From a virus, in IMG/VR virus record IMGVR_UViG_3300046005_001324, positions 1 to 47,868 of that record: a stretch of DNA of 47,868 bases; one strand, given 5' to 3'. The notes beneath the pieces were generated by a model. That model saw only the letters and a list, made by a program, of their open reading frames with translations. It did no database searches and had not been told where the DNA came from. Positions 1,839 to 47,868 of the stretch are shown here, piece after piece. The translations under genes and the position numbers were made by a program. How positions within the stretch are numbered: the stretch's first letter is position 1; each line of letters begins with the position of its first letter.

Positions 1839-3671
1839 TTACGCCCCTTGAAAATAATAAAGTTTTAGGTTTGATGTTGTAGGGATAACAACATCACCAG
1901 AACCCAGTAATGTGTTGCCATTTAATGTTTTGATATTTGTACCTGAAACCAACGCAGCCTGTTTAGCAGCAAGTAAAGTATCTACCTGTGAAACCGTATA
2001 AGTATTCGCTACGTTAAACGCACCGTAAGCCACAATATCAACGCTAGAGCCTACTGTTGCACCAGTTGATAAAACGACTGTCGTACCATTGGTTGCAGTG
2101 AAATCAGTGTCCACAACAAGTTTTACACCGTTTAAATAAACATCTACAAAACCGATGTCATAGGTAGCGTTAAAGGTTGTTTGTGAAGCGATTGCTGTGT
2201 AGAGAGAACGGTTATATGTTCCGTTAAAAGACCCTGCTTTCCACTCTGCGGTAGATGATCCTGTAGCTGTTAATACTTGACCTGCTGTTGGAACATTAGA
2301 AACAGTGTAATTTAAACCAGAAGAAGAAGTAGCCCAGTTAGCTACTGTCTGCCCTGGATTATCAATAATAGCTCTTACAGTTGTACCTATGACTAAATTA
2401 GCTAAAGGACCTGAAGTAGCTATCTGAGATATAGTCCAAATATCCCCCTTTAGAACTGCACCAGATGTACCAGATCCACCAGTTGTAGGGAAGGTATTTA
2501 CTGTTGCATCAAATGATCCACGATCATCCCATAAACCAAGAACTAAACTATCAGCATACGATTTAGCACTATCTAATACAGCAGTGTCTGCTTGTGCTTG
2601 TGCTGCTGATACTGGTTTATCTGCATCAGGCGTATTATTTACGTTAGGTAATCCTACCGCTGTTTTATCTAAAATCTGCCATGATTTATCACCACGGTAA
2701 TATTGATTTGTAGCCCCTGCAGCAAGGACAAATTCTTTCTCGGCTGATAACTCATTAATTGCTGCCTGTACTGTAGTAGCGGTAATTGTACCTGATGGTT
2801 CATTTGAAATATTAGCAGCTGATGCAGCAGGTGTTACCCATGTAGCTGCAGAATCTGATGTAGCAGTTAATACTTGTCCTGCTACTGGTGCAGTAGCATT
2901 AGATACTTGAATTGTTGTTGTAGCTGATTTTAAAGCATTAGATGCACCAGATGTTAAATCAACTGCAGTACCTGAAATATTGGTACCTACAAGTAAGGAA
3001 GGTGTGCCTAAATTTGGTGTTACTAATACAGGGCTAATTGAGAATACTAAATTACCTGAACCTGTTTCATCAGTTAAGGTATTAAATAAATTCTCACTTG
3101 ATGGTGTAGCTAAAAATGTTGTCATTCCTGTAGCTAAACCAGAGATTCCAGTAGTCACAGGTAAACCAGTAGCATTAGTTAATATCCCAGAAACAGGGGT
3201 ACCTAATGCAGGAGCTACGAATGTTTTATTTTCTAATGTAGCTTGAGTTGTTCGTTCAGTTACTACAAATTCTGTAGTAGCAAGTCTTTCACTATTAGAC
3301 GTACTAGGTGGAGTAGGAGCAGTAGGACTATTAATGAAAATAGGACTATCTAAATCAGCCTTATTTACAAATGATCCTGCAGTTAATCTGGCTTCAACTT
3401 TATCACCTATATTGAATAATGCAGCAGCTGCCCCTTCAACACTTCGTGTAACAGTTAAAACATTACCAGACCAAGAATTAACTCTTACTACTTCATGTGC
3501 TGAATCGTTTAGACCAATACGTTTAAAAATAGTAAGTAAGAAATAATTACCAGCATTAGCCCCAGTAAGTGCAGGTAATCCTGCTGTACTGTATAAATGT
3601 AAGGTTGTATCCGTTGCACCAAATGTAGCTGCAACTGTTGTTGAAAAGTTGTTTATAAATAACTGAGTCAT
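1839..3671 (-). CDS. Modular tail fibre protein
   Basis: A 610-residue fibre. Residues 1-105 form a module typical of virion-attached fibre N-termini (TTLHLYSTAGLP, VVRVNSWSGNVLTVTRSVEG). Next come repeats of the NKTFVAPALGTPVSG and TNATGLPVTTGISGLATG type, a KTAVGLPNVNNTPDADKPVS module, a GLWDDRGSFDATVNTFP module, a VDVYLNGVKLVVDTDF module, and a C-terminal segment with GTNIKTLNGNTLLGSGDVVI. All are recurring fibre modules. It has no catalytic residues or chaperone-type C-terminal domain that I can see. The start overlaps the previous stop and is preceded by AAAGG. It is likely a side fibre that reaches the host surface. Confidence 0.8.
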   Translation of the reverse strand: MTQLFINNFSTTVAATFGATDTTLHLYSTAGLPALTGANAGNYFLLTIFKRIGLNDSAHEVVRVNSWSGNVLTVTRSVEGAAAALFNIGDKVEARLTAGSFVNKADLDSPIFINSPTAPTPPSTSNSERLATTEFVVTERTTQATLENKTFVAPALGTPVSGILTNATGLPVTTGISGLATGMTTFLATPSSENLFNTLTDETGSGNLVFSISPVLVTPNLGTPSLLVGTNISGTAVDLTSGASNALKSATTTIQVSNATAPVAGQVLTATSDSAATWVTPAASAANISNEPSGTITATTVQAAINELSAEKEFVLAAGATNQYYRGDKSWQILDKTAVGLPNVNNTPDADKPVSAAQAQADTAVLDSAKSYADSLVLGLWDDRGSFDATVNTFPTTGGSGTSGAVLKGDIWTISQIATSGPLANLVIGTTVRAIIDNPGQTVANWATSSSGLNYTVSNVPTAGQVLTATGSSTAEWKAGSFNGTYNRSLYTAIASQTTFNATYDIGFVDVYLNGVKLVVDTDFTATNGTTVVLSTGATVGSSVDIVAYGAFNVANTYTVSQVDTLLAAKQAALVSGTNIKTLNGNTLLGSGDVVIPTTSNLKLYYFQGA

Positions 3672-4457: not shown

Positions 4458-6341
4458 TTAAATATCCTGTTTAGGAGTTGATAAAGATAAAGATTGTGTA
4501 GCTGATTTATAATAAATAGCCCAAGTATTCAAACCGGGATCTTCAAATGAAGCGGCTATTTGCCCTTGTAACATACTACCTGAGATCACACCATTCTGTA
4601 AACGAGCAGTAATTCGTTGCTGACTGAATAAATCACTAGTAGCTTCAATATTACCTTGTAATAAGGGATTCAACTTTAAATTTAAATTGTATATGCTAGA
4701 GCTGTAGATGCCTCCAGTATGAGATAAAGTTGTGAAGTATTTTGCAACTAGCGAGCTATCCGATCTCATATTAAAAGCCAGGTGAGGAGACACTAGTATA
4801 TCTGCTGAAACCATATTAGAAGAGTAGTTTTTAAATTCTAAATTTGCACTGAGTTGATATTTACCAGATAGAGTACTTGCACTGACCATACCAAAAGGTA
4901 ATGTAGGAGAAAGCTGATAAGTTCCCCCACAATCACCTAAATCCATAATCCCGCCAGAGAACCTACCATTTAGAATAACTAGCGCATCTGCATCATCTTC
5001 AGACGTAAGACCTCCAGATAGAATAGCATCCATCTTCACTCTTGATGGTGAGGAAATACTTGTAAATGCCCAAGTGGATTCCAGACCTCCATTTAAAGCA
5101 GCTGTTAGGCGATATCTAGATGTGATACTGGAACTAGAACTACATCCCCCACCACGAGATGAAGAAATTCTCATCTTATTAGTTGATACAACTGATGAAG
5201 AAGACAGAGATCCTCTAAGGGATACCGTAATCATCATAATGCCAGAAAGAATTGGATTACTAGATGTGAGTCCTCCTTGCATTTTTGCGGATATATTCAA
5301 TAATCCATTTAATGCTGCCCCTGAATTAACTGTACTATCCATCCTCACAGAGATACGATATTTACCTAGTAAGGAAGCTGTTGATTCAATACCTGCATTA
5401 AGCGTTGATGTAATCCGCATTACAGGACTATCAACAATAGACTTTTTAAATACAATTACAGTAGGTGTTAATACAGGGGAGATACGGTACTCAGCTGACA
5501 AGGTTTCAGTAGAGCTAATGCCAATATTTCCAGCAAATGAAATGTTAAAAAAGCCTTGATTATATGATGTTGAATATAGTCCTCCATTTAATGCTCTACC
5601 CCCTAAAATTGGATTTGTATCCAACGAGTGTGTAGACATCATACCAGACGTAAATCTAGGAACTACTTTCCCAATACCACTAACAGCACTATTTGAATAG
5701 ACCCCTTTACCTGAGAATACAGCAGTTCTTTTTTGTTTCCCTTGTATTTGATTAGTCGAATAAATTCCTTCTAATAAGACAGGCTTTGATACATTTGAGA
5801 GCACTAAACCAGAAACAAAAGAAGAGCTACTTAAACCAGAGGATAAAACATACCCTGTGTGTTTGAGGTATCCATAAGCATCAGAGAAACTGTAACAACC
5901 ATCAGCTAAGGATTGACCTAGGATATATGTAGAATCCGATACTCTATCGGTATCACCTACAGTATCTTTAGATCGTAAAATGATGTGAGTTTGAATAAAC
6001 CCACCAACACTATCAGTTTTAACCTGACCACCTTTAAGCATAGGCCAGACATGTTCTTCACCACCTACAGCAGGTTTAGAGAACAATCCTCCAACCATCT
6101 TTGGTGATATTAACCAGTTATTGTAAACAATAGAATCTGAAGTAATACCTCCAACTAACCGTGCTTCAACATTTCCACCTAAAGCTGGAGCAGTAAAAAT
6201 ACCCCCTTGAAGTTTTATATGTGTAAATACTTTGGCATCTAATTCAGAAGTAACTGGATCAAATCCTCCAGACCCTAGCCAGTTTTCACCAATATAGGAT
6301 CCAGCATTTAAATTGGAACCATTAATAGGACTTTCAATCAT
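4458..6341 (-). CDS. Long beta-repeat tail protein (spike or fibre candidate)
   Basis: A 627-residue protein made of about 20 degenerate repeats of 22-26 residues with the pattern GGLxSxSxLxGKYRISxxL (for example GGLTSSNPILSG, SLSSSSVVSTNKMRIS, GMVSASTLSGKYQLS). Regular short strands with Gly/Ser turns suggest an elongated beta-solenoid or fibrous trimer. No enzymatic motif is visible, so depolymerase activity cannot be claimed. Its ATG has GGA about 8 bases upstream. A 71-bp gap separates it from the 467-residue gene. It is probably a long tail appendage; the repeat number may vary between relatives. Confidence 0.55.
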   Translation of the reverse strand: MIESPINGSNLNAGSYIGENWLGSGGFDPVTSELDAKVFTHIKLQGGIFTAPALGGNVEARLVGGITSDSIVYNNWLISPKMVGGLFSKPAVGGEEHVWPMLKGGQVKTDSVGGFIQTHIILRSKDTVGDTDRVSDSTYILGQSLADGCYSFSDAYGYLKHTGYVLSSGLSSSSFVSGLVLSNVSKPVLLEGIYSTNQIQGKQKRTAVFSGKGVYSNSAVSGIGKVVPRFTSGMMSTHSLDTNPILGGRALNGGLYSTSYNQGFFNISFAGNIGISSTETLSAEYRISPVLTPTVIVFKKSIVDSPVMRITSTLNAGIESTASLLGKYRISVRMDSTVNSGAALNGLLNISAKMQGGLTSSNPILSGIMMITVSLRGSLSSSSVVSTNKMRISSSRGGGCSSSSSITSRYRLTAALNGGLESTWAFTSISSPSRVKMDAILSGGLTSEDDADALVILNGRFSGGIMDLGDCGGTYQLSPTLPFGMVSASTLSGKYQLSANLEFKNYSSNMVSADILVSPHLAFNMRSDSSLVAKYFTTLSHTGGIYSSSIYNLNLKLNPLLQGNIEATSDLFSQQRITARLQNGVISGSMLQGQIAASFEDPGLNTWAIYYKSATQSLSLSTPKQDI

Positions 6342-13953: not shown

Positions 13954-13973
13954 GAACACTCCGTGTTCTTTTT
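13954..13973 (+). terminator. Intrinsic terminator 1 after the primase gene
   Basis: Arms GAACAC and GTGTTC with the 3-nt loop TCC start directly after the stop codon and are followed by TTTTT. It fits a compact rho-independent terminator; the short loop also resembles the hairpins of the early region. Confidence 0.7.
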
Positions 13974-17832: not shown

Positions 17833-20800
17833 TTAATCAACTAACCGCATAGTTAATATTTTTGCATATGCGTTATCCCACCCTAATGCCCCATCTCTGA
17901 ATGGATTATTACCAAGATGGTGAAGTAAAGAGCTATCTGTAATCATAGGTCCTAAATGAATTAATTTATTTAAAAGGACCATAGTCATCATTCTTCCAGG
18001 CTGCTCTTTAGAGAGTCTAAATAGCTCTCTTTGAATATATAAGAAATACTTAGTAAAGAGGGTTAACCCAATATCATCTGAATATTGCATCATTCTAGGC
18101 ATAGGTACCGCATATTGAACAAATGCGTTATTAGCCCTAACAACTGCATCTTTATGTGACATTGGATTAACTTTCGTAGTTTGATATTGATACATAGTGT
18201 ACCGAGCCACAAAATCTGATAATTGTGTGATATGTGCTAAAGCTTTATATGCCCCTGATTCACGAGTCATCATTAATGTTTTGATTACTTTTAGTGCTGG
18301 TTCAGGTGTTTTTTGACTCGCTTTATCAATATACTCTCCTAGCATTGTTTTATACGCATATTCCGCATCGGCACCTAAATCCTCTACAATTGTAGGTAAC
18401 ATACCTTCTTCAATTAATGCAGTAGCAGGGTTTCTTTTGATACTGTCTTCTAGTAGTACAATTTGTCGTAAATCTATTTTATTTGCAGTACCTAAAGTCT
18501 CTTTAAGACGTATAGCATCTAAGTCAGCTTTATCTCTCATATATTGAGAGGCTCCTTTAAATGCAATCATTGAGTAATGTACGATATTTTTAAGAGGGAT
18601 ACCTTCTAAAATTAATCGAGATACGTTACTAAAAATGTTACCTACTAAAACAGTTCCTGTTACTACTACAATTTTATCTTTTAAATCAGAAACGATTTCT
18701 TCCCATCCTGATTCAAATCTAGTAACAAATGTTGCAGCTCTTCTCGCATATCTGGTTGATGCTTCTGGTGTCATTCCTCTAGCTCGAGCAGAAATCATGA
18801 GGGTCTCTTCAACAAAGGCAATCCCAATTTTTTGAATAGCGTTTATGGACTTTAAATCTAGAATTCCTGCTGGTTTACCTGCGGCTATTAAATGATCACG
18901 TTCTGCATTTGCACGGTAAAAGGGGTCAGCAGCAGAGACTTTACGATAACCAAAAACGATGTCAGCAGCTTCTTTATGTACCATAATTCTTTCATCACCA
19001 AATATCTCTAAAGCTGCTAGTTGAGTTTTAGTTGGTAGTCTTGCCCATATAGCCCGATCTTCTTGATTAGATGCTTTTGGCCCAATCTCAATAAATTGTG
19101 ATCTGTTATAAGCAGTAGACGCATTATATTCAAGTTTTAATGCGCCTAAAGCTTTCACGTTTAATTCATTTGTAGACTGTTTACTAAATAGTGAACCCGA
19201 TAAGGTACCTAGCACCTTATCAAAGTTATTAGCTTTTTCAAGGACTGAGTTTTTAATATTCTCTGTCATTTTATATGTCCAGTTAATAACCTGCCCTTCA
19301 GAATCATAGATTGGAGCCATCATGTTAACTTCTGGTTTAGATGTAAAATCCTTTAACAATTCAGCCATATCATCCGAGTACCGAGTAGTACGATTTCTAT
19401 TCTTTTGATTATTAATCATAGAATGAATCTCAGCATTTAAGATACCATCTGGATTATTTAAATCCATAAAGCCATTAGTAATATTATCATCTGTTGAGCC
19501 TTCACTCCAAAACTGAACAATACCTGCTGAATACGTCTTTCTCGAGGCATGGCGTAATACATAGTAATGTTTTGTAGTTTGATCTGGATCGTGGGGATCT
19601 CTTTTAATTTCGCCTAATTGTTCAAACCCTACATCCAGAAGTTTTTGTCCATCTTCGATATTAGCTGCTCTTAATTGAACATGCGGGTTATAGATTTCAT
19701 GAATATTACCAAATGCTGCTTTTGATGGATCATTATCATAAATACTTGATAACTCTACTTCAGCTAAATGGCGGTGCAATCTAAGCATAAAGTCAATACC
19801 ATTGCCTTCTTCCATAGGACGTTGCGCTTCAATTGCCATTAATTTACTCACTGCTTGTTTATCAGACTCTGGGGTATATTTAAGAGCAAACATGGTTGTT
19901 AATTTAGTTACATGCTCAGTTGCAATATTCAATTGTTTTTGAGTCAATCGATTATTACCTTCACCAAAACTATTCACAATTTGATATACATTTCCTTTTA
20001 AGAATTGAACAGCACTGTTACCTGTGGCAGCGTAGTAACCTAATCCATGTGCATTGGTAATAAACTCAGGAGCATGTTTAGGGAATGCCGACATAAGCTT
20101 ACTGGCTTCATCTTGAATAACCTGCTCAACTTTTGAACCATCAGACATAAAAGCTTCAAGTTCCGCTAAAGAATAGGTCTCCATAAGCGAGTGCATATTT
20201 GTTTTTAATACTGCAGCAGTTAAGGCAGTCTTGTCAGTACTACTTAAATTCTGTCCATTTTTATTAAAGGCGTTTAAGGTCCCTTTAGCAATATTAGACA
20301 TCATGTCTTTACGTTGTGTATCTAAATGTGTCCGTGTTACTCGAAGTAATTCAAATACCTCTTTTTGACCTTTAACACTATTAATCAAACCAGCTAATAG
20401 ACCTAATCTGCCATTATCAGCAGCGTGGAATAATTCGAGTGTCATTCTTAATAACTGGTCTACTTTGTGTCCAGCAACTGTTTTAAATAGACCAGATATT
20501 GCTTTAACTGTGTGAAATCGTGATTCAGCAATAAGGTCCGAACTGGCAAGTTTAATACCAGTATTAATTACAGATTTTGCTGTTTTATCTAAGAATGACT
20601 CAATACTTTGTTTAGTAGGTGATGCATCTAAATCTAATTGATGTTGAATCACTTTCTTCTGATCGATCTCTAAATCCACTAATTTAATGATCAATGCCTC
20701 TAATCGCTGGCTACTAAGTTTTGAGTCTTTAGTAGACGGTGTAACCTGAGTCCATGAGTGAATGTACTCCAAAATATTTTCAAAAATAGCTTGTAACTTC

Positions 20801-23800
20801 TGTGCCCAAGATTGTTTAGCTGTACTGGTTTTCTTTTCAATGTGTTGGTCTAATAAATTATGTAATCCAGGATTCGTTAATGCAATAGCCGCAAATCTTG
20901 CTAAGTAATCCGAGGTATTATTCACGCCACTAGTTACTTTAAAAATTACATCGTGTAGTTTAGTTGCTTCAGCTTTTGTAGTTGTTCCAAATGCACTGCC
21001 TAATAAATCATCAACAGTAATTGATTTACTAACTGAATCGTATAAATTTCGTAAATCTTTATATGGCTGAAAAGTGTGTAATTCATTATTAGAATTTAAT
21101 GCCGCTATAGCAGCATATACTTGTTCCATAACAAACGACTGTTTACCATCTAGTGTTAAACCGGCTTTCCTAAGCTCATTACTAAGTGGAGTTAGCTTCT
21201 CTTTTTCATTACGCTTCCAAACTTTATCTGCACTTAATCGTGAAGATTTAATTTCAGAATGGATTAATCCAAATGGTCCATGTAATTTATTTACTATGGA
21301 TCCAAGAATATTTTTAAGATGTGTATCAAATTTTGTATCAGTATTTTGACTTGATAGGGCATCATATGTTTCTTGTGTAGAGAATTTTGAGGCCTTGGTT
21401 CCAGTCATGTGAAGTTGTAAATTAAAATCAGAATTATCAAATGAATGTGTCTGGCCTTGTTCAGCTAACGTGATTAAAGCCATTGCATCAGTAATGAATA
21501 ACCCTAAACCCTTTGCTTCTTCTAAAGTTTTAAAGCCTAGGATTTTAGCAATACTCTTAATAAACTGATTAAAGTAATTAATTAATCGCCCTAAGGTAGT
21601 ACGCTCATTTCTAATAGCCCCTCGTTCAATTTCCTGAGCGTGCAACACTTCCGTTTGAAACTTTTTATCCGTTAAGCCATACGACACAAATTCCTGGATA
21701 TCATTTAAAGGTATAGCAAACTCTACTTTTAAATCCTCAGAAATATCAGGATTTGTTTTAATACCCCCCATTAATTTTTCAAGACTAGTTATTGCTTGTT
21801 CAGTTGCCTGTCTGTGTTGAGTATTACCTGTTTCTAGAGAATAACCATTCTTTTCTTTTGCAATCAACACTCCAACTGCAGCGTGTACTAATTCATGCAG
21901 TAATACAGACGCATTTAAAGGCTGTCTTGTAAGATTTGGTCCATAGACTGTAATGGTATGCTCACCATTTTCAAAAAAGTAATCCGCACGGATAGGGACA
22001 CCTCTATTAAAAGATTGCTGCAGTTCCTTTTGATATGCAGTTTGGGCATCTTTTTTAGGTAATGAATCTATATACTTAAATTTAACATCCTTAGGGAGAG
22101 CTTTAGTTAGTTGATCTATTAAAGTATTTTCAAATGAGGTGAGAGTTCGTAGCTGTTTAAGTCCACGCATTACTGAATCAACTGATACGTCATGCGCTTC
22201 TAAGGTTTTAACTAAAGTTGTTTGATCAAAATAAGGGTGCTGTTTAACTTTCAACTTTTTAATCGCTTCAGTTATTTCAGGTGAGAGGGATACTTCATAC
22301 TTAGCCTGAGTTTTTTTAATTTGCTGTTTAAGATAGTGTCTATCTTTTTCAGTAATAGTGTAATGACCCCCTTCAGTTGAATATTGATTAATATACTCAG
22401 AAGTTAATAATGTGTTCAGTTTAGTTAAATCTGCTTGTCTCGCTTGCCCTCTCAGAAGTGTAAGCAGATCAGTTATATTAACAACCTCACCTGATAATGG
22501 ATCACGAAGTTTTGAAATAAATTCTTCCCATTCTAAAATGGTAAACTCTTCATTACTTAATCCCAACACCATTCTTTCAAGAGTATCCACCATTTCAGAC
22601 ATTGGTGAATATGAGGCATTTACTTCAAAAAATGCTTTATTTAGTTCTTGAGCAACTTCAGGGATAAGGTCAAAACGAGTAATAGCTGCATCAAAAATAT
22701 CTAAAATAACAATACCTTTTTTCTGTAAAGCTTGAATTGCTCTATTTAAAATTGCGCTATCCATTGGATGAATTAAACGTGTAACAATGCCTACGCGAAG
22801 ATTATCTAATTTATCAACTAAAGGTTTTCCAATAGCCCCTGCGGTACGAATTGTTTTGCTTTTCTCATCTGTTGGGCTTTTCCCTGCTTTAAAAATCGCA
22901 ACTCCAGTACTTAAATCCGCTGAATTTTTAGTAGGGCCAAACTTAGACATAAACGTGTGTGCATATGGTAATAAACCTTTTTCAAATAATGTGGATTTAA
23001 TGTGGTTAACTAATTCAACAGGAATACCTTCTGCAGCTTGAATTGTAGAGGCAGTATCATTCAGGTCAAATCCCTCCTCAGACCAAAATACTTTTTGTGG
23101 GATTATGGCACCATCGGCCTGAGGCCCTTCAGTAATGTAGGTCCATACGCCCTCTTTTTCTGCCTTTTTTAATTCCCTTTTAACTAATAAATCAGCCATA
23201 TCCCCTAGTACTTGAGATACGTTAATGAGTGTTTTAGACCGTTCTAAGAAAGGTGAAAACGTTTTACTCATTCCTTCTTTTAATGCTCGGCCAAAGATTA
23301 GTTCGTGTCCTTCTCTAATTGCACTATCCAAATCTGCGTTAAATATAGAATTATTCTGTACTAACTCTTTTCCGTTAAAGGTGTACCCCATTAATAATAA
23401 AGGGTCAATGTTAGGATTAATTACAATAGGAGACCTATTAAAGTTATTAACCGAAAGAATGGCATTCAAGGATGCAATCATCTTTGGTGCGTCTTTCGTT
23501 AAAGTTCCTTTTTTATGGGATTCTGAAATTTTCATTTTTACTGATGTTAAGAATGCATCAGATGTTTGTTTAGCTGCATTATCTAGAGAACTTCCAAAAA
23601 AAGGCATTAATGTAGGTTCTTTAAATAATTCACGCATATATCCTGAAATCGTATTCTCTTCAGTAGTAAACTTCCCTAAAAAATACTCCATTGCTTTATA
23701 TGCGGCTCTAGCACCTTTTTTAGTCACCAAAGGTTTTCCAGTTGCTGTTAATACTCCGTTTTGATGAATATCACTTAAGACCTCTAATGCTGCTGATCCA

Positions 23801-26800
23801 CCAGTTTGGTACACGTCTAAATTTGCAGGGTCCGCTTTTTTCCATTTATCAAAGAAAGTAATTAACCCTTTAGGGTAAATCCCAAACTTCTGAATAAACT
23901 GCCCAAGTGCTTGCATTGATCTCTCTGCCCCAAGAGCTAAGATTCCAATAGCAACACCATTAGTTTTACCATCTACCTCTGCTACTAACGATGATTTGAA
24001 GGATGTGGTCCCTTTTCTTTTCGCAGATTCTCTATCAGCTAAAGCAGTTAATCCGATAAAGGCATGCATCCCTGTCTTTGCTTCCCGGACAATTTCTTTA
24101 ATGATACGTTGATCTTCAGCATGGACAGATTCATTAATTGAGTCATCAATTACATTAGTTAATGCGCTTACTGCTTGTGATATTAATGATGTCGGATCTG
24201 CCAAAGCATCCTGTAGTGCATCTGGATTCATGCCTAATGCTTCAGCAACATTATGTTCAAAATCAGCAACGGTCTCAATATCAGTAAAATCAATGGATCT
24301 ATTCCATGATTTATGCGAAATAAGCCATCTAGAGAATTTATGTGATTGTGGGTTAATAGTTCCTGAAACCATATTACGTTGGTTAACCGCTACCCGTCTA
24401 TCAAGGAAAAATTTAACAAGACTATAATCTCCCCCAATTTCTGAGGTCTCCGTCAACTCATCAACTGCATCAAATAAATTATTGATTTGTAATTGAATAT
24501 CATCATTCTTGGCTTGTAGGCTGTCTATAACATCAGCATGATACATTGGATTTCCCAGCGCATCATCTAATTCAATTATCCCTGCCATATCAGCAATCGT
24601 ATCCATACCCATCCCTGCCATAACTACAAATGCAGAATCATTTAAGACGTATTCTGTTTTTACTTGCTGGTTTAATGTTTTGCGTTGAATTGCAGGTAAC
24701 TTAGAAAAATTCGATTGACGTTCTTTTGGAGCCTCTGTATGAAATCCCTCCGTTACACTTGTAGCGGCAAAAATCTTATTAAGGATTCGATTAGATAAAC
24801 TCAACTGCTCTAACTCTTTTTCGACTACAGCAGAATATCTAGAAGACAGTCCTAACCGTCTATTTTGTACATTAGTTTTATTAGATTTAAGTGCAGGAGT
24901 TAATCTTAGAAAGTAAAATTTGCGGTGTTTAGCATCAGTTAATGCTTTTCCCATTGGACCATATTCTGCATCTGCTGCTGTTCTTAAATCGTATTCAGAT
25001 ATTGGGACCCTTTGTACTATTCCATCTTTGATTAGTTTCTCAATTGTATGTAATCCAAACGCAGTTCTAGTTTTTTCTAGGTATTCACTATCAGCCTTTT
25101 TACCTACATTTTTATATCCCAACATATTGGTAATCTCTTTACCAATTGCAGCTGCCATCGCATTCTCATTCATCATCCCATTTGGGAGTAATTTAAATAG
25201 GATATCTGTTACAGGGGCATTAGAGTTTCTACCAATTAAGGTATTAATATGTTCTTTGGTTGTAAGAGTTTTTGCTAATCCTTGAATCGCAGTTGAACCA
25301 GCAACAGCAAATGCAGCTGCCACATTCTCTTCGACTTGCATATTACCTTGGTCATCTGTGTATGCTAATCCAAGAATAGGATTACGTTTATCTACTTTTG
25401 CGCTTGGTGGTGCATTTACATATTTATGAATTGTGTCTGTTAATCTCTTTTGAAATTCGATAGTTTTATCTTTAACAGCTCTTAAAAAAGCACTTTGATG
25501 TTCATCAATTTCAGGGACATTAGCTAATTCAGCTGCTTTAGTATTATCCAGATTAGAGATGAAGTTTCTAATGGATGTAAGTGGTTTGTCATCTGAAGTA
25601 TCTTGTTTAATGTTTTTTGCTAGTAGATTAGTCTTCGCACCTGTATTAACCAACTCACCTGCATCATTTTTTAATGCATTATGCTCTTTACCTTGAAGCA
25701 GTGCTTCCTGTCCTGCCAAGTGTTTCAGTGCCTCTTCATTAATAATAGCATCTGCTGTGATAGGTGTAGGTATACTAGTTAATCTGTCTGATGTGTTTGG
25801 GGTTGATGTAGTAACTTCATCTAATATATTAGTTTGCTGCCCTGTACTTATATCAGTGGATTGAGTTTGTGTAGTATTTTGTGAAGGCTGGGATGTTGTA
25901 TTTGTTTGTGTATTGGGTGTAGATGCCCCCATTGGTAAACCAGCTAAATAATTGTATGCGGTAGTAACATCCTGTGCTTCTTGGTTAATACTATCTCTTA
26001 ATGAAGCAGCGTTCTTACCCTTTTGGGTTGTAGCCCCGGTAATAGCAATAGCCCCTGGAACTCGTGCAGCCTGTGCATACTGAACGCCATCGACATGAAT
26101 AGGCATATTCGCAGGTACTTGTACCCATTTATTAATATCTACAGCATCTCGAATAAATACAACAGGGTTTGCTTTATATGCAGCGTCTAATTCTTGTGGT
26201 GTTTTATTTCCAATATAATCATTAATAATTTTAGCTTTAGAGTCTCTACCTTGTCTAAATTGATCCATTAAATCTAATAAATATGCTTTTCGTTTTGGAT
26301 TTGCAGATGAGATTTCTCTGACATAATCCGGAATACTTAAGTGAGTACCTCCTTCATCATATACGTCCGATCGAACATCCGATGCTGATTTATTTTGATT
26401 ATTCTTACCAAGAATCCGAAGAACAGACTCCTCTTCATCTGTAAAAGGAAGTTCAGTTTGTCCCGCTTGCTTGGCTGCCTCTTGTGCTGCTAATGCTCGT
26501 TTAAGTTGTGTTGGGCTAAGTGTCCCTGCCATCTGAAGCTTCAATACGATTCCTGCAGATGTTTTTGTATTTGGTCCCACTAAGCCATCAACAATTTCTG
26601 CTTGTTTCTGTTCTGGGTATATATGTGTATACAAATCTGCTTGAGCTTCTTTGGCTGCAATTAAGGAAGATTCCTTAGCCGCAGTTATAGAAGCAAGCTG
26701 TGTTTTAGATTCATCCGAGCTTGCCCATTGCTTTGCTCTTTCAATATCTAGTTTTAGGTCTGGAATTACCGCTTGAACTGCATCATATCTAGGGTCATCA

Positions 26801-28380
26801 GGGGTCAGTGCTTCTGCCCGGCCTAATTTAGCTTCAAGTGCTACAGGATCCGCTATTCGAGTAAGTTGTTGAAAGTCTGCGGATAGTTGATCTACAACAT
26901 TGGTAGCTGTCTGTAATACCGCGTCTTTCTTGGTTTGTAATTCAGCTTGCTTTTCAGGAGAATCTTTATCGCTGTATTGATCATACTCATGCTCAACTGT
27001 TTTAACATGATCAAATAATGCCTGAATCCCAAACACTGGATTATGTAATGCTGAGGTTGGATTAGTAAATGCGGATATATCGCCAGAATTTTTAGCTGCT
27101 TCATACTCTGCATCTTTAGCTTGTTCATTGGTTTTTTGTTCTGCTGCTGATTGAGGATTTATTACAGCACTATCTTGTCCGATTAACTGCGTAGTATCTT
27201 GCTGGTTTTGCATATTTCCTATTGCTGAAGCAACAGCTAACCCTCCTTCTTTTACACCTTGTAATCCTTTTTGAATAACATGTTGCCCTGCAGATTGCCC
27301 TACTGAGGATATGCCTTCTAATACCGCATCTTTAGCGTTTTGGTCACCTGTAGCAGCCCACTGTCCTAAGTATTCACCTACACCTTCTGAACCCATCTCA
27401 CCAGCAATTAAACCAGCAGATTGTATTAAGTTTGAACCTTGTTTAGATGCTAAATATTCAGCATCTTGTAAAATTGCCTGTCTAATAGCAGGTGTTTTCA
27501 TCGCTGCTTGTACTGCAACTGTATCAGCTATATCTACTCCAGCAGTTGATAATGCACGTCCTGTAGCAGCTTTTAATGGTGCATTCATAAATGCCCCTGC
27601 CATACCTAAAGATGCAGTATCAACTGCACCAATGACACCACTTTTAATAGCATTATCTTGTAATAGCTGACCTCTATTCTGTTGGAAGAATTGCTCCATT
27701 GCTTGAGTATCATTTTGGTCTACACCTTGTTTAGCCATTAAGTTTTGAATCGCTTCAGATTGACCAACACCCATATTCCCTAATGTAGCACCAGCAAACA
27801 TACCTGCTGCTGTTCCAACTGGACCACCCATTAAAGTACCAGCTAAAGCACCTGCACCCATACCTGCCATAGCTACTGCAGAATTAGGTAATTGAGTAAC
27901 CACACCTCCACCTAATGCAGCAGCATTTTCATACAGGGCATTTAACTTATCCATTGGTGAGACAGCTTCACCAACAGTTTGTTGGATATTAGATAGCGTA
28001 TCCCCAATACCTTGAAGTGCAGCACCAAAAGACTGCTTCTGACCTTGACTATCTGTTGCTGCTTCATAGGCAGCAGATAACCGTTGTGCAGCTAATGATC
28101 CTTGATTAGCTTGATTATATGACTGTAGCCCCAAATACTCAGTTAAAGCATCTTGTGAGTTACCTATTACAAGATTTCCTAATTGGCGTACAGAAGATCC
28201 TGCTTGAACCATCCCACGTTCTAATGGTGAATCTGATGCAGCAGCAGCATACGCTTGCTGATCTAATGCAGCTTGAGGACTAGCGACATACGCTTTAAGA
28301 TCAACAAGTTTTTGCTGCGAAGCTTGAGCTACTTCAGCAGCTTTTTGAGTAATTTGTTCTTGGGTAAGTGGGGCAGCCAT
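17833..28380 (-). CDS. Giant virion-encapsidated RNA polymerase (N4 gp50-like vRNAP)
   Basis: 3515 residues, close to the 3500 of N4 vRNAP. A Gly-rich hydrophobic stretch lies near 165-215. T7-family polymerase motifs occur in order: R1335 before NPQ (1343-1345), matching T7 GRVYAVSMFNPQ; motif A with D1470 (AEVDGKTNG); motif B R1583-x3-K1587 to F1595-G1596, matching T7 R627/K631/Y639; motif C with D1897 (LDIFDAAIT). The gaps between catalytic residues (135, 117, 310) are close to those of N4 mini-vRNAP. Odd points: Phe replaces the motif B Tyr, NQR replaces xGR, and FD replaces HD. A zincin-like H2162-E-x2-H2166 with E2230 follows. It is probably injected with the DNA and transcribes early genes. 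Confidence 0.85.
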   Translation of the reverse strand: MAAPLTQEQITQKAAEVAQASQQKLVDLKAYVASPQAALDQQAYAAAASDSPLERGMVQAGSSVRQLGNLVIGNSQDALTEYLGLQSYNQANQGSLAAQRLSAAYEAATDSQGQKQSFGAALQGIGDTLSNIQQTVGEAVSPMDKLNALYENAAALGGGVVTQLPNSAVAMAGMGAGALAGTLMGGPVGTAAGMFAGATLGNMGVGQSEAIQNLMAKQGVDQNDTQAMEQFFQQNRGQLLQDNAIKSGVIGAVDTASLGMAGAFMNAPLKAATGRALSTAGVDIADTVAVQAAMKTPAIRQAILQDAEYLASKQGSNLIQSAGLIAGEMGSEGVGEYLGQWAATGDQNAKDAVLEGISSVGQSAGQHVIQKGLQGVKEGGLAVASAIGNMQNQQDTTQLIGQDSAVINPQSAAEQKTNEQAKDAEYEAAKNSGDISAFTNPTSALHNPVFGIQALFDHVKTVEHEYDQYSDKDSPEKQAELQTKKDAVLQTATNVVDQLSADFQQLTRIADPVALEAKLGRAEALTPDDPRYDAVQAVIPDLKLDIERAKQWASSDESKTQLASITAAKESSLIAAKEAQADLYTHIYPEQKQAEIVDGLVGPNTKTSAGIVLKLQMAGTLSPTQLKRALAAQEAAKQAGQTELPFTDEEESVLRILGKNNQNKSASDVRSDVYDEGGTHLSIPDYVREISSANPKRKAYLLDLMDQFRQGRDSKAKIINDYIGNKTPQELDAAYKANPVVFIRDAVDINKWVQVPANMPIHVDGVQYAQAARVPGAIAITGATTQKGKNAASLRDSINQEAQDVTTAYNYLAGLPMGASTPNTQTNTTSQPSQNTTQTQSTDISTGQQTNILDEVTTSTPNTSDRLTSIPTPITADAIINEEALKHLAGQEALLQGKEHNALKNDAGELVNTGAKTNLLAKNIKQDTSDDKPLTSIRNFISNLDNTKAAELANVPEIDEHQSAFLRAVKDKTIEFQKRLTDTIHKYVNAPPSAKVDKRNPILGLAYTDDQGNMQVEENVAAAFAVAGSTAIQGLAKTLTTKEHINTLIGRNSNAPVTDILFKLLPNGMMNENAMAAAIGKEITNMLGYKNVGKKADSEYLEKTRTAFGLHTIEKLIKDGIVQRVPISEYDLRTAADAEYGPMGKALTDAKHRKFYFLRLTPALKSNKTNVQNRRLGLSSRYSAVVEKELEQLSLSNRILNKIFAATSVTEGFHTEAPKERQSNFSKLPAIQRKTLNQQVKTEYVLNDSAFVVMAGMGMDTIADMAGIIELDDALGNPMYHADVIDSLQAKNDDIQLQINNLFDAVDELTETSEIGGDYSLVKFFLDRRVAVNQRNMVSGTINPQSHKFSRWLISHKSWNRSIDFTDIETVADFEHNVAEALGMNPDALQDALADPTSLISQAVSALTNVIDDSINESVHAEDQRIIKEIVREAKTGMHAFIGLTALADRESAKRKGTTSFKSSLVAEVDGKTNGVAIGILALGAERSMQALGQFIQKFGIYPKGLITFFDKWKKADPANLDVYQTGGSAALEVLSDIHQNGVLTATGKPLVTKKGARAAYKAMEYFLGKFTTEENTISGYMRELFKEPTLMPFFGSSLDNAAKQTSDAFLTSVKMKISESHKKGTLTKDAPKMIASLNAILSVNNFNRSPIVINPNIDPLLLMGYTFNGKELVQNNSIFNADLDSAIREGHELIFGRALKEGMSKTFSPFLERSKTLINVSQVLGDMADLLVKRELKKAEKEGVWTYITEGPQADGAIIPQKVFWSEEGFDLNDTASTIQAAEGIPVELVNHIKSTLFEKGLLPYAHTFMSKFGPTKNSADLSTGVAIFKAGKSPTDEKSKTIRTAGAIGKPLVDKLDNLRVGIVTRLIHPMDSAILNRAIQALQKKGIVILDIFDAAITRFDLIPEVAQELNKAFFEVNASYSPMSEMVDTLERMVLGLSNEEFTILEWEEFISKLRDPLSGEVVNITDLLTLLRGQARQADLTKLNTLLTSEYINQYSTEGGHYTITEKDRHYLKQQIKKTQAKYEVSLSPEITEAIKKLKVKQHPYFDQTTLVKTLEAHDVSVDSVMRGLKQLRTLTSFENTLIDQLTKALPKDVKFKYIDSLPKKDAQTAYQKELQQSFNRGVPIRADYFFENGEHTITVYGPNLTRQPLNASVLLHELVHAAVGVLIAKEKNGYSLETGNTQHRQATEQAITSLEKLMGGIKTNPDISEDLKVEFAIPLNDIQEFVSYGLTDKKFQTEVLHAQEIERGAIRNERTTLGRLINYFNQFIKSIAKILGFKTLEEAKGLGLFITDAMALITLAEQGQTHSFDNSDFNLQLHMTGTKASKFSTQETYDALSSQNTDTKFDTHLKNILGSIVNKLHGPFGLIHSEIKSSRLSADKVWKRNEKEKLTPLSNELRKAGLTLDGKQSFVMEQVYAAIAALNSNNELHTFQPYKDLRNLYDSVSKSITVDDLLGSAFGTTTKAEATKLHDVIFKVTSGVNNTSDYLARFAAIALTNPGLHNLLDQHIEKKTSTAKQSWAQKLQAIFENILEYIHSWTQVTPSTKDSKLSSQRLEALIIKLVDLEIDQKKVIQHQLDLDASPTKQSIESFLDKTAKSVINTGIKLASSDLIAESRFHTVKAISGLFKTVAGHKVDQLLRMTLELFHAADNGRLGLLAGLINSVKGQKEVFELLRVTRTHLDTQRKDMMSNIAKGTLNAFNKNGQNLSSTDKTALTAAVLKTNMHSLMETYSLAELEAFMSDGSKVEQVIQDEASKLMSAFPKHAPEFITNAHGLGYYAATGNSAVQFLKGNVYQIVNSFGEGNNRLTQKQLNIATEHVTKLTTMFALKYTPESDKQAVSKLMAIEAQRPMEEGNGIDFMLRLHRHLAEVELSSIYDNDPSKAAFGNIHEIYNPHVQLRAANIEDGQKLLDVGFEQLGEIKRDPHDPDQTTKHYYVLRHASRKTYSAGIVQFWSEGSTDDNITNGFMDLNNPDGILNAEIHSMINNQKNRNRTTRYSDDMAELLKDFTSKPEVNMMAPIYDSEGQVINWTYKMTENIKNSVLEKANNFDKVLGTLSGSLFSKQSTNELNVKALGALKLEYNASTAYNRSQFIEIGPKASNQEDRAIWARLPTKTQLAALEIFGDERIMVHKEAADIVFGYRKVSAADPFYRANAERDHLIAAGKPAGILDLKSINAIQKIGIAFVEETLMISARARGMTPEASTRYARRAATFVTRFESGWEEIVSDLKDKIVVVTGTVLVGNIFSNVSRLILEGIPLKNIVHYSMIAFKGASQYMRDKADLDAIRLKETLGTANKIDLRQIVLLEDSIKRNPATALIEEGMLPTIVEDLGADAEYAYKTMLGEYIDKASQKTPEPALKVIKTLMMTRESGAYKALAHITQLSDFVARYTMYQYQTTKVNPMSHKDAVVRANNAFVQYAVPMPRMMQYSDDIGLTLFTKYFLYIQRELFRLSKEQPGRMMTMVLLNKLIHLGPMITDSSLLHHLGNNPFRDGALGWDNAYAKILTMRLVD

Positions 28381-45067: not shown

Positions 45068-45081
45068 CTCGCTGTCGCTCG
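45068..45081 (+). repeat. 14-mer repeat CTCGCTGTCGCTCG, copy 1
   Basis: The same 14 bases recur exactly at 45565-45578, and a one-base-shorter form is at 10953-10965. In both early-region copies a hairpin starts 5-7 nt downstream, so the 14-mer plus hairpin looks like one conserved control block. Confidence 0.7.
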
Positions 45082-45123: not shown

Positions 45124-45333
45124 ATGACTATGTTAACTGAAGCCTTTAACTTTGTATCTGTATCAATCAGTGTTGCCACTAACACTGTTGAATCAGTTGG
45201 TGATATATCGAAAACTATTCGACATATCACTAGTGCAGTTGAACGCACTACAGGTACGGTAATGCCAATGATCGAACAATCTATCATAAATTCATACACC
45301 AAATCACAATCTGATCTACTAGATCAATTGTAA
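45124..45333 (+). CDS. Small early protein, function unknown
   Basis: A 69-residue protein (MTMLTEAFNFVSVSISVATNTVES...SQSDLLDQL). It is mostly amphipathic helix with Val/Ser/Thr-rich heptads and no convincing membrane segment. The ATG follows TGGAGAG, the standard strong site of this early region; a longer frame from 45007 has no ribosome site. It resembles the 72-residue protein at 46707 in length, VSV-start and helix pattern, so the two may be paralogues. Early position suggests host takeover, but no function can be named. Confidence 0.65.
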   Translation: MTMLTEAFNFVSVSISVATNTVESVGDISKTIRHITSAVERTTGTVMPMIEQSIINSYTKSQSDLLDQL

Positions 45334-45341
45334 ACCTATAT

Positions 45342-45372
45342 CCTCACTATATACTAACCGTATGTAGTGGGG
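45342..45372 (+). other. Imperfect hairpin 8 nt after an early-gene stop codon
   Basis: CCTCACTATATAC pairs with GTATGTAGTGGGG with two mismatches and loop TAACC. No T-run follows. It is the first of a series of hairpins that follow the stop codons of early genes at nearly constant distance. The rest of the 340-bp gap to 45674 holds two or three more hairpins and no credible gene. Confidence 0.5.
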
Positions 45373-45504
45373 ATTTAAAGCATCACACATTAGCTATCTG
45401 CATGACTATCTATATGTCTTATATCTACATACTCTCGTTTTTGTCACACACTTCTGGATAGTCTCGACAAGGGATAAGATGCACACCCTTTCGCTCCACA
45501 TGTA

Positions 45505-45523
45505 GTAATGCCTGTGGCATTAC
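45505..45523 (+). promoter_or_regulatory. Hairpin with 3-nt loop, candidate vRNAP promoter
   Basis: Perfect arms GTAATGCC and GGCATTAC with loop TGT. Stem 8 bp, loop 3 nt, as in N4 early promoter hairpins. It lies in the gap before the 174-residue early gene. Confidence 0.45.
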
Positions 45524-45564
45524 CTTTTAAAATCCCTTCGGTTTTTACCTAACTATCTAGTTGG

Positions 45565-45578
45565 CTCGCTGTCGCTCG
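45565..45578 (+). repeat. 14-mer repeat CTCGCTGTCGCTCG, copy 2
   Basis: Exact copy of the 14-mer at 45068. A hairpin starts at 45585, 6 nt downstream, the same arrangement as at copy 1. Confidence 0.7.
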
Positions 45579-45584
45579 TAAAGG

Positions 45585-45644
45585 CATACATTGTGTATGT
45601 ATTTGTCCATTGTGGACGCTTCGTGTACACCTTGTGTGTGTACA
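45585..45644 (+). promoter_or_regulatory. Three successive short hairpins before an early gene, candidate vRNAP promoters
   Basis: 45585-45599 has arms CATACA/TGTATG with loop TTG. 45605-45617 has arms GTCCA/TGGAC with loop TTG. 45624-45644 has arms TGTACAC/GTGTACA with a 7-nt loop. The first two have the 5-6 bp stem and 3-nt loop of N4 vRNAP promoters and share the same loop. They end 29 nt before the ATG at 45674. Confidence 0.5.
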
Positions 45645-45673
45645 TGAAATTATTTATATCTAGGAGAAGTATC

Positions 45674-46198
45674 ATGGCTTTACCAAAAAGAAATGCAGCA
45701 ACACGTTCTAACAAAGCTGCAGTGAACAGTGATAGCTGGAAAAAAGCTAAAGGTATTATCAATATTTACGTGACTGGTGCATCACGTACTAAATTGGGAA
45801 TCTTACCTTTACGTGAGAGCAATGCTATTGAAAGCAAATTGCTTGAGTGGATTGGAGACGATGCTGGTGATAAAGCTGCATCGTTAATGGATAAGTTCGA
45901 GCTAACATATAACAGCGTTAGTGTTGACGATGCATTAGACTTTATCGAATTAGATTCAGATGATGAATCAATCGATGATAAAGGTGTGCTTGGTTATTTG
46001 AACTTTGCATTACCTTCATCAGCTGGCTCTAGTCGTATTGGAGCTATTGTGTTGAAGGATGGTGAAAGTAATCACCGTAAAATCGCCAGTTGGTTACTTC
46101 AAGATGAAGGAAATATTGAAGTATTGAAAAGCAAGATGTCTATTATTTATCACACTACTGAAAAGAGTACTACTAGTGATGTAAAACTATTCATCTAA
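45674..46198 (+). CDS. Early protein of 174 residues, function unknown
   Basis: The ATG follows TAGGAGAAG. The N-terminus is basic (MALPKRNAATRSNKAA), then comes INIYVTGASRTKLGILPLRES, a strongly acidic stretch FIELDSDDESIDDKG, and a soluble alpha/beta C-terminal half (LNFALPSSAGSSRIGAIVLKDG, IASWLLQDEGNIEVLKSKMS). No membrane segment or catalytic motif is recognised. Longer frames upstream cross the promoter hairpins and are unlikely. As the largest complete early gene here with a strong RBS it may be highly expressed; its role is unknown. Confidence 0.65.
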   Translation: MALPKRNAATRSNKAAVNSDSWKKAKGIINIYVTGASRTKLGILPLRESNAIESKLLEWIGDDAGDKAASLMDKFELTYNSVSVDDALDFIELDSDDESIDDKGVLGYLNFALPSSAGSSRIGAIVLKDGESNHRKIASWLLQDEGNIEVLKSKMSIIYHTTEKSTTSDVKLFI

Positions 46199-46206
46199 TG
46201 GATAGG

Positions 46207-46240
46207 AAGCCAGTACCCTAGAAATAGGGTATTGGTGCTT
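46207..46240 (+). other. Hairpin with GAAA loop after an early-gene stop codon
   Basis: Core arms TACCCTA/TAGGGTA with loop GAAA (46214-46231), extended by CAG/TTG and AAGC/GCTT with a small bulge. GAAA is a stable RNA tetraloop, so this probably acts as RNA. It begins 8 nt after the stop and has no T-run. Confidence 0.65.
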
Positions 46241-46243
46241 ATG

Positions 46244-46273
46244 TAAGATAGTCAAATTAATTGGAGAGTAAAA
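46244..46273 (+). repeat. Repeated early-gene leader, copy 1
   Basis: TAAGATAGTCA is followed closely by AATTGGAGAGTAAA and then the ATG at 46274. Nearly the same leader lies before the ATG at 46463 (46435-46462). It contains the ribosome site GGAGAG. Confidence 0.7.
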
Positions 46274-46390
46274 ATGAGTTTAAAAGAAGCTATAAAACGT
46301 GAAAAATTGATGTTTGTTGTAGATGGTTTAGTGATCACAGCAATCATTATCATACCTTGTATTTTAGGTTTGATTAGTTCAAATCTGTAA
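46274..46390 (+). CDS. 38-residue single-helix membrane protein
   Basis: MSLKEAIKREKLMF, then a hydrophobic helix LVITAIIIIPCILGLI, ending SSNL. The charged start with Lys/Arg and a single helix suggest an inner-membrane protein with its N-terminus in the cytoplasm. GGAGAG lies at a good distance. Short membrane peptides in phage early regions often act on the host membrane or on superinfection, but nothing here shows the target. Confidence 0.65.
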   Translation: MSLKEAIKREKLMFVVDGLVITAIIIIPCILGLISSNL

Positions 46391-46397
46391 GGTAAAT

Positions 46398-46425
46398 ACT
46401 ACGATGTCTGAAAAGATGTCGTAGT
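46398..46425 (+). other. Hairpin with GAAA loop after an early-gene stop codon
   Basis: ACTACGA pairs with TCGTAGT, then two G-T-type pairs, then TCT/AGA closing a GAAA loop. It starts 7 nt after the stop at 46390. The loop is shared with the hairpins at 46207 and 46936. Confidence 0.65.
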
Positions 46426-46434
46426 GAAATTAAG

Positions 46435-46462
46435 TAAGATAGTCACTAATTGGAGAGTAAAC
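46435..46462 (+). repeat. Repeated early-gene leader, copy 2
   Basis: TAAGATAGTCAC then TAATTGGAGAGTAAAC before the ATG at 46463. It differs from copy 1 by small changes only, so the leader has probably been duplicated together with an early gene unit. Confidence 0.7.
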
Positions 46463-46651
46463 ATGTTAAATGTAGAGAACATCATTAAGTTAGCAGCAGA
46501 ACAAATTGAAGCGTGGAACACTGCTGAGTATAGGAAAGAAAGTATGAGACAGTACAGACCCATTGCAGAGTACACAACAGATCTATCAATAGCCAAAGAT
46601 TTAGCTGAATTGGCATATTTACGTGTATTGCTTGATGAATTAAGAAAATAA
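46463..46651 (+). CDS. 62-residue early protein, function unknown
   Basis: MLNVENIIKLAAEQIEAWN, then YRPIAEYTTDLSIAKDLAELAYLRVLLDELRK. It is a helical, charged, soluble protein with no membrane segment. The start at 46463 uses the GGAGAG leader; a GTG-started extension from 46424 would read through the leader repeat and is rejected. Two helices with a Pro between them could form a small dimeric bundle. No family is recognised. Confidence 0.65.
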   Translation: MLNVENIIKLAAEQIEAWNTAEYRKESMRQYRPIAEYTTDLSIAKDLAELAYLRVLLDELRK

Positions 46652-46658
46652 CCTTGAG

Positions 46659-46673
46659 GCGTACTCCGTACGC
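46659..46673 (+). promoter_or_regulatory. Hairpin with 3-nt loop after an early gene, candidate vRNAP promoter
   Basis: Arms GCGTAC/GTACGC with loop TCC; stem 6, loop 3. It lies 7 nt after the stop at 46651 and 33 nt before the ATG at 46707. A TTCTTCCCTTTT stretch follows, so a weak terminator is also possible. Confidence 0.5.
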
Positions 46674-46706
46674 TTCTTCCCTTTTATTATGTAGTGGAGA
46701 AGTAAA

Positions 46707-46925
46707 ATGTTAAAAGAATTATTGGATGTTGTAAGTGTTGGTTTGGTTGTATCTACGCAAGCACTAAATACTGTATCTACAGGTGTAACTGCTGTAGACA
46801 ACTTAGTAAATGCAGCAGAAAAATCAACAAGAATGATTGATATTGAAGCAGAAAATTTGTTGAAATTGCAGACACAGCGGTTATCAGCAAATGCTCAAAC
46901 TGCTGCATTGTTAGACAGCTTATAA
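46707..46925 (+). CDS. 72-residue early protein, function unknown
   Basis: MLKELLDVVSVGLVVSTQAL, then STGVTAVDNLVNAAEKSTRMID and a Gln/Leu-rich helix ending TAALLDSL. It is a helical protein with the same length class and a VSV segment at the same place as the 69-residue protein at 45124, so it is a possible paralogue. TGGAGAAG precedes the ATG. No catalytic motif is seen. Confidence 0.65.
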   Translation: MLKELLDVVSVGLVVSTQALNTVSTGVTAVDNLVNAAEKSTRMIDIEAENLLKLQTQRLSANAQTAALLDSL

Positions 46926-46931
46926 AACTAG

Positions 46932-46990
46932 AGGGCTAGTAGAAATACTAGTCACCGTAGGTGACAGGCACACTGAGTGTGCCTAGCCCT
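46932..46990 (+). terminator. Three-hairpin junction closed by an outer stem, before the RNA polymerase gene
   Basis: Outer arms AGGG and CCCT (extending to AGGGCTA/TAGCCCT) enclose hairpins CTAGTA-GAAA-TACTAG, GTCACC-GTA-GGTGAC and AGGCACAC-TGA-GTGTGCCT. Five T follow the outer stem. Two of the loops have 3 nt. It could terminate early transcription before the polymerase gene, promote it from vRNAP hairpins, or do both. Confidence 0.6.
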
Positions 46991-47012
46991 TTTTGTTGTA
47001 TTGGAGATAGAC

Positions 47013-47868
47013 ATGAATCAAAAAGAAATTGAAGAACACTTTAGTAAAAAGAAACCAAGACAAATGATCAAACAATTTATCCTTGAGAATATTGAGGATG
47101 AAGATATTGATCAAGCTGTAGTGTTGTTAGAAGAATGGATGAGTGTTGAGTATTATCCAAGCAAACAAGCTAGATTAGAGAAACTAGCTGAAATGGATTT
47201 AAGAAAATTAGTGGTTGATGTTGTTATTAGAACTACTGAGATTCAAGTAGAGACATTGCTTACAAATGCTGTAGGACAACTAGCTTCATTATTAGATATG
47301 AAGAAGTTAGACAGCATTAAAACCATGAGTGAAATACTAGCAATATTGTCTGAGATGGAATGGTATGAACTTATAAAAGAATCTAATGAAGCAAGTTGGA
47401 TGATTGTAAGTTTGATTGAAATACCAGAAGAAATACAGGATGCAGCGGATAGATGCTTGTATATGCCGCCAATGATTCAGAAACCAAGAAGATTAAAAGA
47501 GAATAAAGACAGTGGATATTTGACTGTTAAAGAATCTTTAATCTTAGGTAGTGGGAATCATCATGATGGTGATATTTGTCTTGATGTACTTAATCTCATG
47601 GCTTCAGTGCCATTGAAATTAGATGTTAAATTTATATCTGAAGTAGTTGAAGAACGAAAAGAAGAAGTTACAGCAGATATGATATTACAAGATTATCCTG
47701 AATTAACAGATGAAGAAGCTATCGCTGAAGCTATGTACAGAATGGAAATGCATGAGATATTTGCAGAACAAAGTCAGGCAGTATATGACCTGATAATTGA
47801 TGCAGGTAATGAGTTCTATCTTAATCAGAAAGTAGATAAAAGAGGACGAGTATATGCACAAGGCTATC
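47013..47868 (+). CDS. N4-type RNA polymerase subunit (RNAP1, gp15-like), cut by the right edge
   Basis: 285 codons are open to the window end. The ATG follows TTGGAGAT. The protein is helical and acidic (IEEHFSKKKPRQMIKQFILEN). At its end is FYLNQKVDKRGRVYAQGY, with D275-x2-G278-R279, the DxxGR motif of T7-family RNA polymerases. In N4 this motif lies near the C-terminus of gp15 (269 residues), the first of two proteins that make RNA polymerase II; the second, gp16, carries motifs A to C. Length and motif position here suggest the same split, but the end is outside the window. It would transcribe middle genes. Confidence 0.75.
   Translation, partial: MNQKEIEEHFSKKKPRQMIKQFILENIEDEDIDQAVVLLEEWMSVEYYPSKQARLEKLAEMDLRKLVVDVVIRTTEIQVETLLTNAVGQLASLLDMKKLDSIKTMSEILAILSEMEWYELIKESNEASWMIVSLIEIPEEIQDAADRCLYMPPMIQKPRRLKENKDSGYLTVKESLILGSGNHHDGDICLDVLNLMASVPLKLDVKFISEVVEERKEEVTADMILQDYPELTDEEAIAEAMYRMEMHEIFAEQSQAVYDLIIDAGNEFYLNQKVDKRGRVYAQGY

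Follow-up and report, generated by a model that had tools for sequence, protein, structure and literature searches.

Hairpins behind the early genes of an uncultivated N4-like phage as candidate transcript-end elements

Why should one early gene after another in a stretch of phage DNA be followed by a hairpin, and are these hairpins elements of a single kind? The stretch analysed here, 47,868 nucleotides long and called the window below, is a fragment of an uncultivated Schitoviridae (N4-like) phage. It encodes an N4-like portal and terminase, a giant virion RNA polymerase and, running off its end, RNAP1 (Table 1). RNAP1 matches 421 phage records, every one at less than 60% identity, and the annotated records that we examined among them are Schitoviridae; by DNA similarity no near relative of the window was found among named phages. 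The hairpins lie in the early region, which has RNAP1 at its end. In N4, the injected polymerase copies this region from hairpin promoters on single-stranded DNA (PMC4496689), and the window's own giant virion polymerase is expected to do the copying here; its residues 961-2127 gave no sequence match to solved structures, N4 mini-vRNAP included. The original prediction described repeating units of leader, small gene and hairpin, and proposed that they serve RNA protection, processing or partial termination at each gene, or modular gene capture.

A stable stem-loop stands directly behind all five early stop codons. The RNA folding z-scores of hpA, hp1, hp2, hp3 and hp4 are -6.55, -6.77, -6.34, -5.31 and -5.42, and for each hairpin none of 200 dinucleotide shuffles folded as well. 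The predicted constant distance from the stop holds roughly, with a spread of 5-11 nt rather than exactly 6-8. The GAAA loops are present as described, in hp1 (46221-46224), in hp2 (46410-46413) and in the first arm of hp4, as are GGAGA-type ribosome sites upstream of each early gene. Of the other stops tested in the window, most lack a hairpin of this kind; strong ones do stand at a convergent terminator (17789/17833) and behind the stops at 35899 and 16797. Directly behind the stop at 13953 there is also a hairpin with a TCC triloop (13954-13968), followed by TTTTTC. Rfam searches at relaxed and gathering thresholds gave no credible match, and the CCTAAG half of a GAAA tetraloop receptor was not found.

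Table 1. Features of the window that bear on the early-region hairpins
Feature	Coordinates	Strand	Description
Giant virion RNA polymerase	17833..28380	-	3515 aa; PF21867 domain match
Early gene A	45124..45333	+	69 aa
Hairpin A (hpA)	45340..45374	+	stop 45333, starts at +7; 15 bp, loop TAACC, no U-tract
Early gene B	45674..46198	+	174 aa; homologues across Schitoviridae
Hairpin 1 (hp1)	46209..46236	+	stop 46198, starts at +11; 12 bp, GAAA loop, no U-tract
Spacer copy 1	46239..46276	+	TTATGTAAGATAGTCA ... TAATTGGAGAGTAAAAATG; TAATTGGAGAGTAAAAATG is the ribosome site of the 38-aa gene; direct repeats D8, D6
Small gene	46274..46390	+	38 aa
Hairpin 2 (hp2)	46397..46426	+	stop 46390, starts at +7; 13 bp, GAAA loop, no U-tract
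Spacer copy 2	46430..46465	+	repeat of spacer copy 1; direct repeats D8, D6
Small gene	46463..46651	+	62 aa; absent in L129 and L094
Hairpin 3 (hp3)	46656..46676	+	stop 46651, starts at +5; 9 bp, TCC triloop closed by C-G
Early gene upstream of RNAP1	46707..46925	+	72 aa
Hairpin 4 (hp4)	about 46930..46994	+	stop 46925, starts at +5; branched, then TTTTT
RNAP1, small subunit of N4 RNAPII type	47013..47867	+	runs off the window; phrog_2166

The close relatives available for comparison are two IMG/VR contigs, L129/L012 (74 kb) and L094/L014 (61 kb), whose terminases are 91% identical to that of the window; a search for further relatives, by hairpin DNA pattern and RNAP1 alignment, returned the same two contigs only. 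Conservation in relatives had been proposed as a check on the hairpins, and they are indeed conserved in both contigs, with compensatory changes. hpA, hp1, hp3 and hp4 (or its first arm) occupy the same junctions in L129 and L094, and hp2 is nearly identical in L129 and absent in L094. In hpA four pairs are changed on both sides and 97.8% of cells are paired, a level matched by 8 of 500 shuffles; in hp3 two pairs are changed on both sides. hp1 is 100% paired across the relatives, with wobble changes only, and its loop varies from GAAA to GCAA, both of the GNRA type. Coming from three sequences, this covariation is supportive, not conclusive. The first arm of hp4 reads GGCTAGTA-GAAA-TACTAG in the window (within 46930-46994), and L094 carries at 4660-4703 (minus strand) its exact inversion, GGCTAGTA-TTTC-TACTAGCC, then TTTTT; this is a hairpin inversion between relatives. 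Elsewhere in L094, a group I intron (RF00028, 69.3 bits; 2700-2991, minus strand) splits the RNAP2 gene; the 233-aa reading frame behind the intron has no match in Pfam.

Comparison with more distant members of the family suggests what kind of position these junctions are: at least three of the five hairpins stand where relatives carry predicted transcription terminators. The clearest case is hp1. An automatic rule finds, behind 41 of 55 gene B homologues, several of them near-duplicate loci, a hairpin at or below -9 kcal/mol with a U-tract, and a T-run is visible in about eight of the remaining 14. A strong hairpin without a U-tract behind gene B is clearly seen in the window and in L012, and L094 keeps TTTTT behind hp1, so that hp1 is best read as a terminator site at which two genomes have no U-tract. 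Early hairpins resembling hpA, with a TAACT loop and a T-rich tail, are found in two relatives (L075, L080); LIT1 has a hairpin with the loop CTAACCC behind its first gene, and CB1 and P184 have hairpins behind their first genes as well. hp2 has a counterpart in L129 only. The tails of hpA (TTTAAAGC), hp1 (GCTTATGTAA) and hp2 (AAATTAAG) lack a U-tract, and we therefore file these three as position counterparts, not as terminators. hp4 comprises three small hairpins inside an outer stem, then TTTTT at 46990-46994, and its anatomy is that of a predicted terminator (T5) before RNAP1; a tRNA-like reading of it was dropped because no tRNA was found.

Hairpins at stop codons are not peculiar to this phage. 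Eight named phages have 52 early gaps no shorter than 30 nt, and 25 of these gaps carry such a hairpin, where 10.3 are expected; post-stop hairpins are thus common in the family. Unusual in the window are the presence of a hairpin in every early gap and the lack of a U-tract in three of the hairpins. Seven terminator-like sites lie in the region, hp3 and the last arm of hp4 among them, against 1.7 expected. Intrinsic terminators have been predicted in N4-like phages of the LUZ7/LIT1 (PMC3715699) and CB1 (PMC6027278) types; they share with the window's hairpins the site behind gene B, similar stems and tetraloops and, with hp4, the T-run, whereas hpA, hp1 and hp2 have no T-run and the fold of hp4 is branched.

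Homologues of gene B itself occur in LIT1, CB1, Kc283 and MIF8 and in a large number of environmental relatives. In the deposited annotation of Kc283 the homologue is an RNA polymerase cofactor. Gene B and its homologues also match phrog_6271, which is labelled a toxin. Position and the one deposited annotation suggest a cofactor role despite that label. Assignment of gene B to N4 gp1 or gp2 was dropped, the similarity being unconvincing. Gene A and the gene before RNAP1 are apparent distant paralogues (pairwise E 4e-4), and a defence-family search of the small early genes gave no match.

The reading that we favour, at a probability of roughly 60%, is that the hairpins are mostly transcript-end elements in an N4-type early region copied by the injected virion RNA polymerase. 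Early transcripts would partly end at the hairpin behind each gene or be trimmed back to it. The U-less hpA, hp1 and hp2 would act as leaky terminators or, once the upstream mRNA has been cleaved or trimmed, as its stable 3' ends, and may stabilise that mRNA. Where the U-tract is missing, readthrough would carry transcription on towards RNAP1, with hp4 as the putative last terminator before it. Small genes would come and go between spacers that hold their places. The counterpoint to termination at hpA, hp1 and hp2 is that the U-tract that defines an intrinsic terminator is missing from all three, and sequence alone cannot separate termination, processing and stabilisation. Partial termination at each gene, as proposed, or a 3'-end function draws support for hpA, hp1 and hp4 from terminator position homology, covariation and sense-strand bias. 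The idea of one uniform repeating unit finds no support, since hp3 looks more promoter-like, hp4 is a composite terminator and the other three have no U-tract.

Junction DNA is 84% identical at hpA, 87% (L129) and 68% (L094) at hp1, 88% at hp2 and 72-79% at hp3. The neighbouring genes are less alike: gene A reaches 47-48%, gene B 56-57% and the gene before RNAP1 53-59%. Local alignments return the same conserved islands at the junctions. In the interval from hp1 to hp3 the window carries two genes, of 38 and 62 aa, L129 carries one 82-aa gene similar to neither, and L094 carries none. The suggestion of modular gene exchange is supported, in three genomes only, by conserved spacers with different genes between them. 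Direct repeats of the spacer lie on both sides of the 38-aa gene, and across the family the interval from gene B to RNAP1 holds 0 to 11 predicted genes, which marks it as a plastic place in general.

T4-like phages offer a comparable arrangement in their PeSL promoter-terminator cassettes (Arbiol 2010, Comeau 2014, as cited in PMC4503421). There too, spacers with stem-loops separate small early genes within a plastic region where genes are exchanged, and exchange of genes between conserved spacers is what we find, again in three genomes only. We found neither a sigma-70 type promoter nor a C-TNC-G hairpin in the hp1 and hp2 spacers, which therefore do not combine a recognisable promoter and a stem-loop in one spacer; the polymerase also differs from that of the PeSL phages, and the comparison covers only three genomes. 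It is possible, and we put it forward tentatively, that the spacers, each a hairpin with a ribosome site, are mobile recombination units for the capture and exchange of small genes, in the manner of PeSL. The conserved spacer DNA around exchanged genes, the direct repeats flanking the 38-aa gene and the variable interval speak for this; the sample of three genomes, the lack of a recognisable promoter in the hp1 and hp2 spacers, and the fact that selection on expression signals alone also predicts conserved spacers speak against it. Mobility of this kind and a transcript-end function can hold together. A more speculative proposal, which we regard as doubtful, sets the U-less hairpins of N4-like phages apart as a separate functional class: terminators in origin, they would have been retained by selection in a readthrough 3'-end role, on spacers working as gene-exchange modules, and would make up a PeSL-like system with a phage polymerase that starts at DNA hairpins.

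Folding of both strands bears on a further alternative. For hpA, hp1 and hp2 the sense RNA is clearly stabler than the antisense, because wobble pairs turn into A-C mismatches on the other strand, and this bias points to RNA and not to a hairpin in template-strand DNA; it is weaker in hp3 and absent from the L094 form of hp3. In T7, RNase III cleavage sites lie at the junctions between early genes. By analogy, a host double-strand RNase might cut the early polycistronic RNA of the window's phage at the hairpins, the remaining 3' hairpin then protecting the mRNA. The sense-strand bias, the tolerance of G-U pairs, the hairpins without U-tracts, their position between early genes and the retained GNRA loop agree with such processing, and T7 is likewise a podophage with hairpins between its early genes. 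The stems of the window are shorter than those of the T7 sites, however (hp2 has only 13 bp and hp3 9 bp); relatives, moreover, carry ordinary terminators at the hp1 position and terminator-type hairpins resembling hpA. We consider intercistronic processing at the hairpins unlikely.

hp3 calls for separate treatment. We scanned for promoter loops of the N4 type (C-TNC-G on the sense strand, C-GNA-G on the template), and the scan recovered the three N4 promoters at 90, 557 and 4546 in the N4 entry (L002). It also returned multiple copies in relatives, with 106 loops in sense and 22 in antisense orientation across the early regions. In the window's early region hp3 is the only one: its template strand reads C-GGA-G, position -11 is a purine and the stem has 5 bp or more. 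Its loop lies 42 nt upstream of the next start codon (45 nt in L014), within the range of some 40-60 nt before an early gene; in relatives with such a hairpin behind gene B, the distance from loop to start is mostly 41-46 nt, and the location between gene B and RNAP1 is shared. The vRNAP promoters of N4 require a C-GNA-G triloop, -8G and +1C on the template strand (PMC4496689). In hp3, position -8 is A (T in L129 and L094) and +1 is not C, and we therefore call this hairpin promoter-like without filing it as an N4 vRNAP promoter. It resembles N4 P1-P3 (PMC4496689) in its template C-GNA-G triloop, its short stem and its position, which is a short way upstream of an early gene and fairly near RNAP1, and differs from them in lacking G at -8 and C at +1 and in the TTCTTCCC downstream. 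The sequence directly after its stem is TTCCCTTTTA, and in two relatives (L145, L146) long T-runs follow TCC-loop hairpins. By its letters hp3 is ambiguous between promoter and terminator; within the transcript-end reading it may, with less certainty, be a promoter hairpin of the N4 P3 type.

Both types of hairpin occur side by side in relatives. In L028, L059, L069 and L050 several early genes have a promoter-type hairpin before and a terminator-type hairpin after them, and some spacers hold both. The early regions of these four and of L064 contain between four and six N4-type promoter hairpins (C-TNC-G), which exceeds the number in N4, reportedly described with three vRNAP promoters. Scanning upstream of genes A and B revealed no N4-type promoter hairpin. 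The long leaders before these genes each contain one copy of the 14-mer CTCGCTGTCGCTCG, a mirror repeat over 13 nt, and these are its only two exact copies in the window (45068-45081 and 45565-45578; 0.03 expected); it may mark an early promoter. A second motif, GATAGTC, was dropped as part of a start site, since ATG adjoins it in only 5 of 53 cases.

That every one of the hairpins serves the virion polymerase as a promoter in single-stranded DNA is very improbable. hp3, with the triloop required in N4 (PMC4496689) and a loop-to-start distance of 42 nt beside the 41-46 of most relatives, favours the idea, but even hp3 lacks -8G and +1C; hpA, hp1, hp2 and the outer stem of hp4 show no template-strand C-GNA-G triloop, the first three have loops of 4-5 nt on stems of 12-15 bp, and on the template strand their wobble pairs would turn into A-C mismatches. 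Nothing beyond the small number of hairpins speaks for chance folding in A+T-rich spacers, which can be set aside as negligibly probable given z-scores of -5.3 to -6.8, 0 of 200 shuffles for each hairpin, and conservation with compensatory changes.

Read mostly as transcript-end elements, the hairpins provide a concrete map of candidate early transcript ends for an uncultivated N4-like phage. They also indicate that cis-acting signals can outlast the genes that lie between them. With most of the family carrying a predicted terminator behind gene B, and with promoter-type hairpins repeated along the early regions of relatives, the early transcription units of N4-like phages may be readable from sequence.
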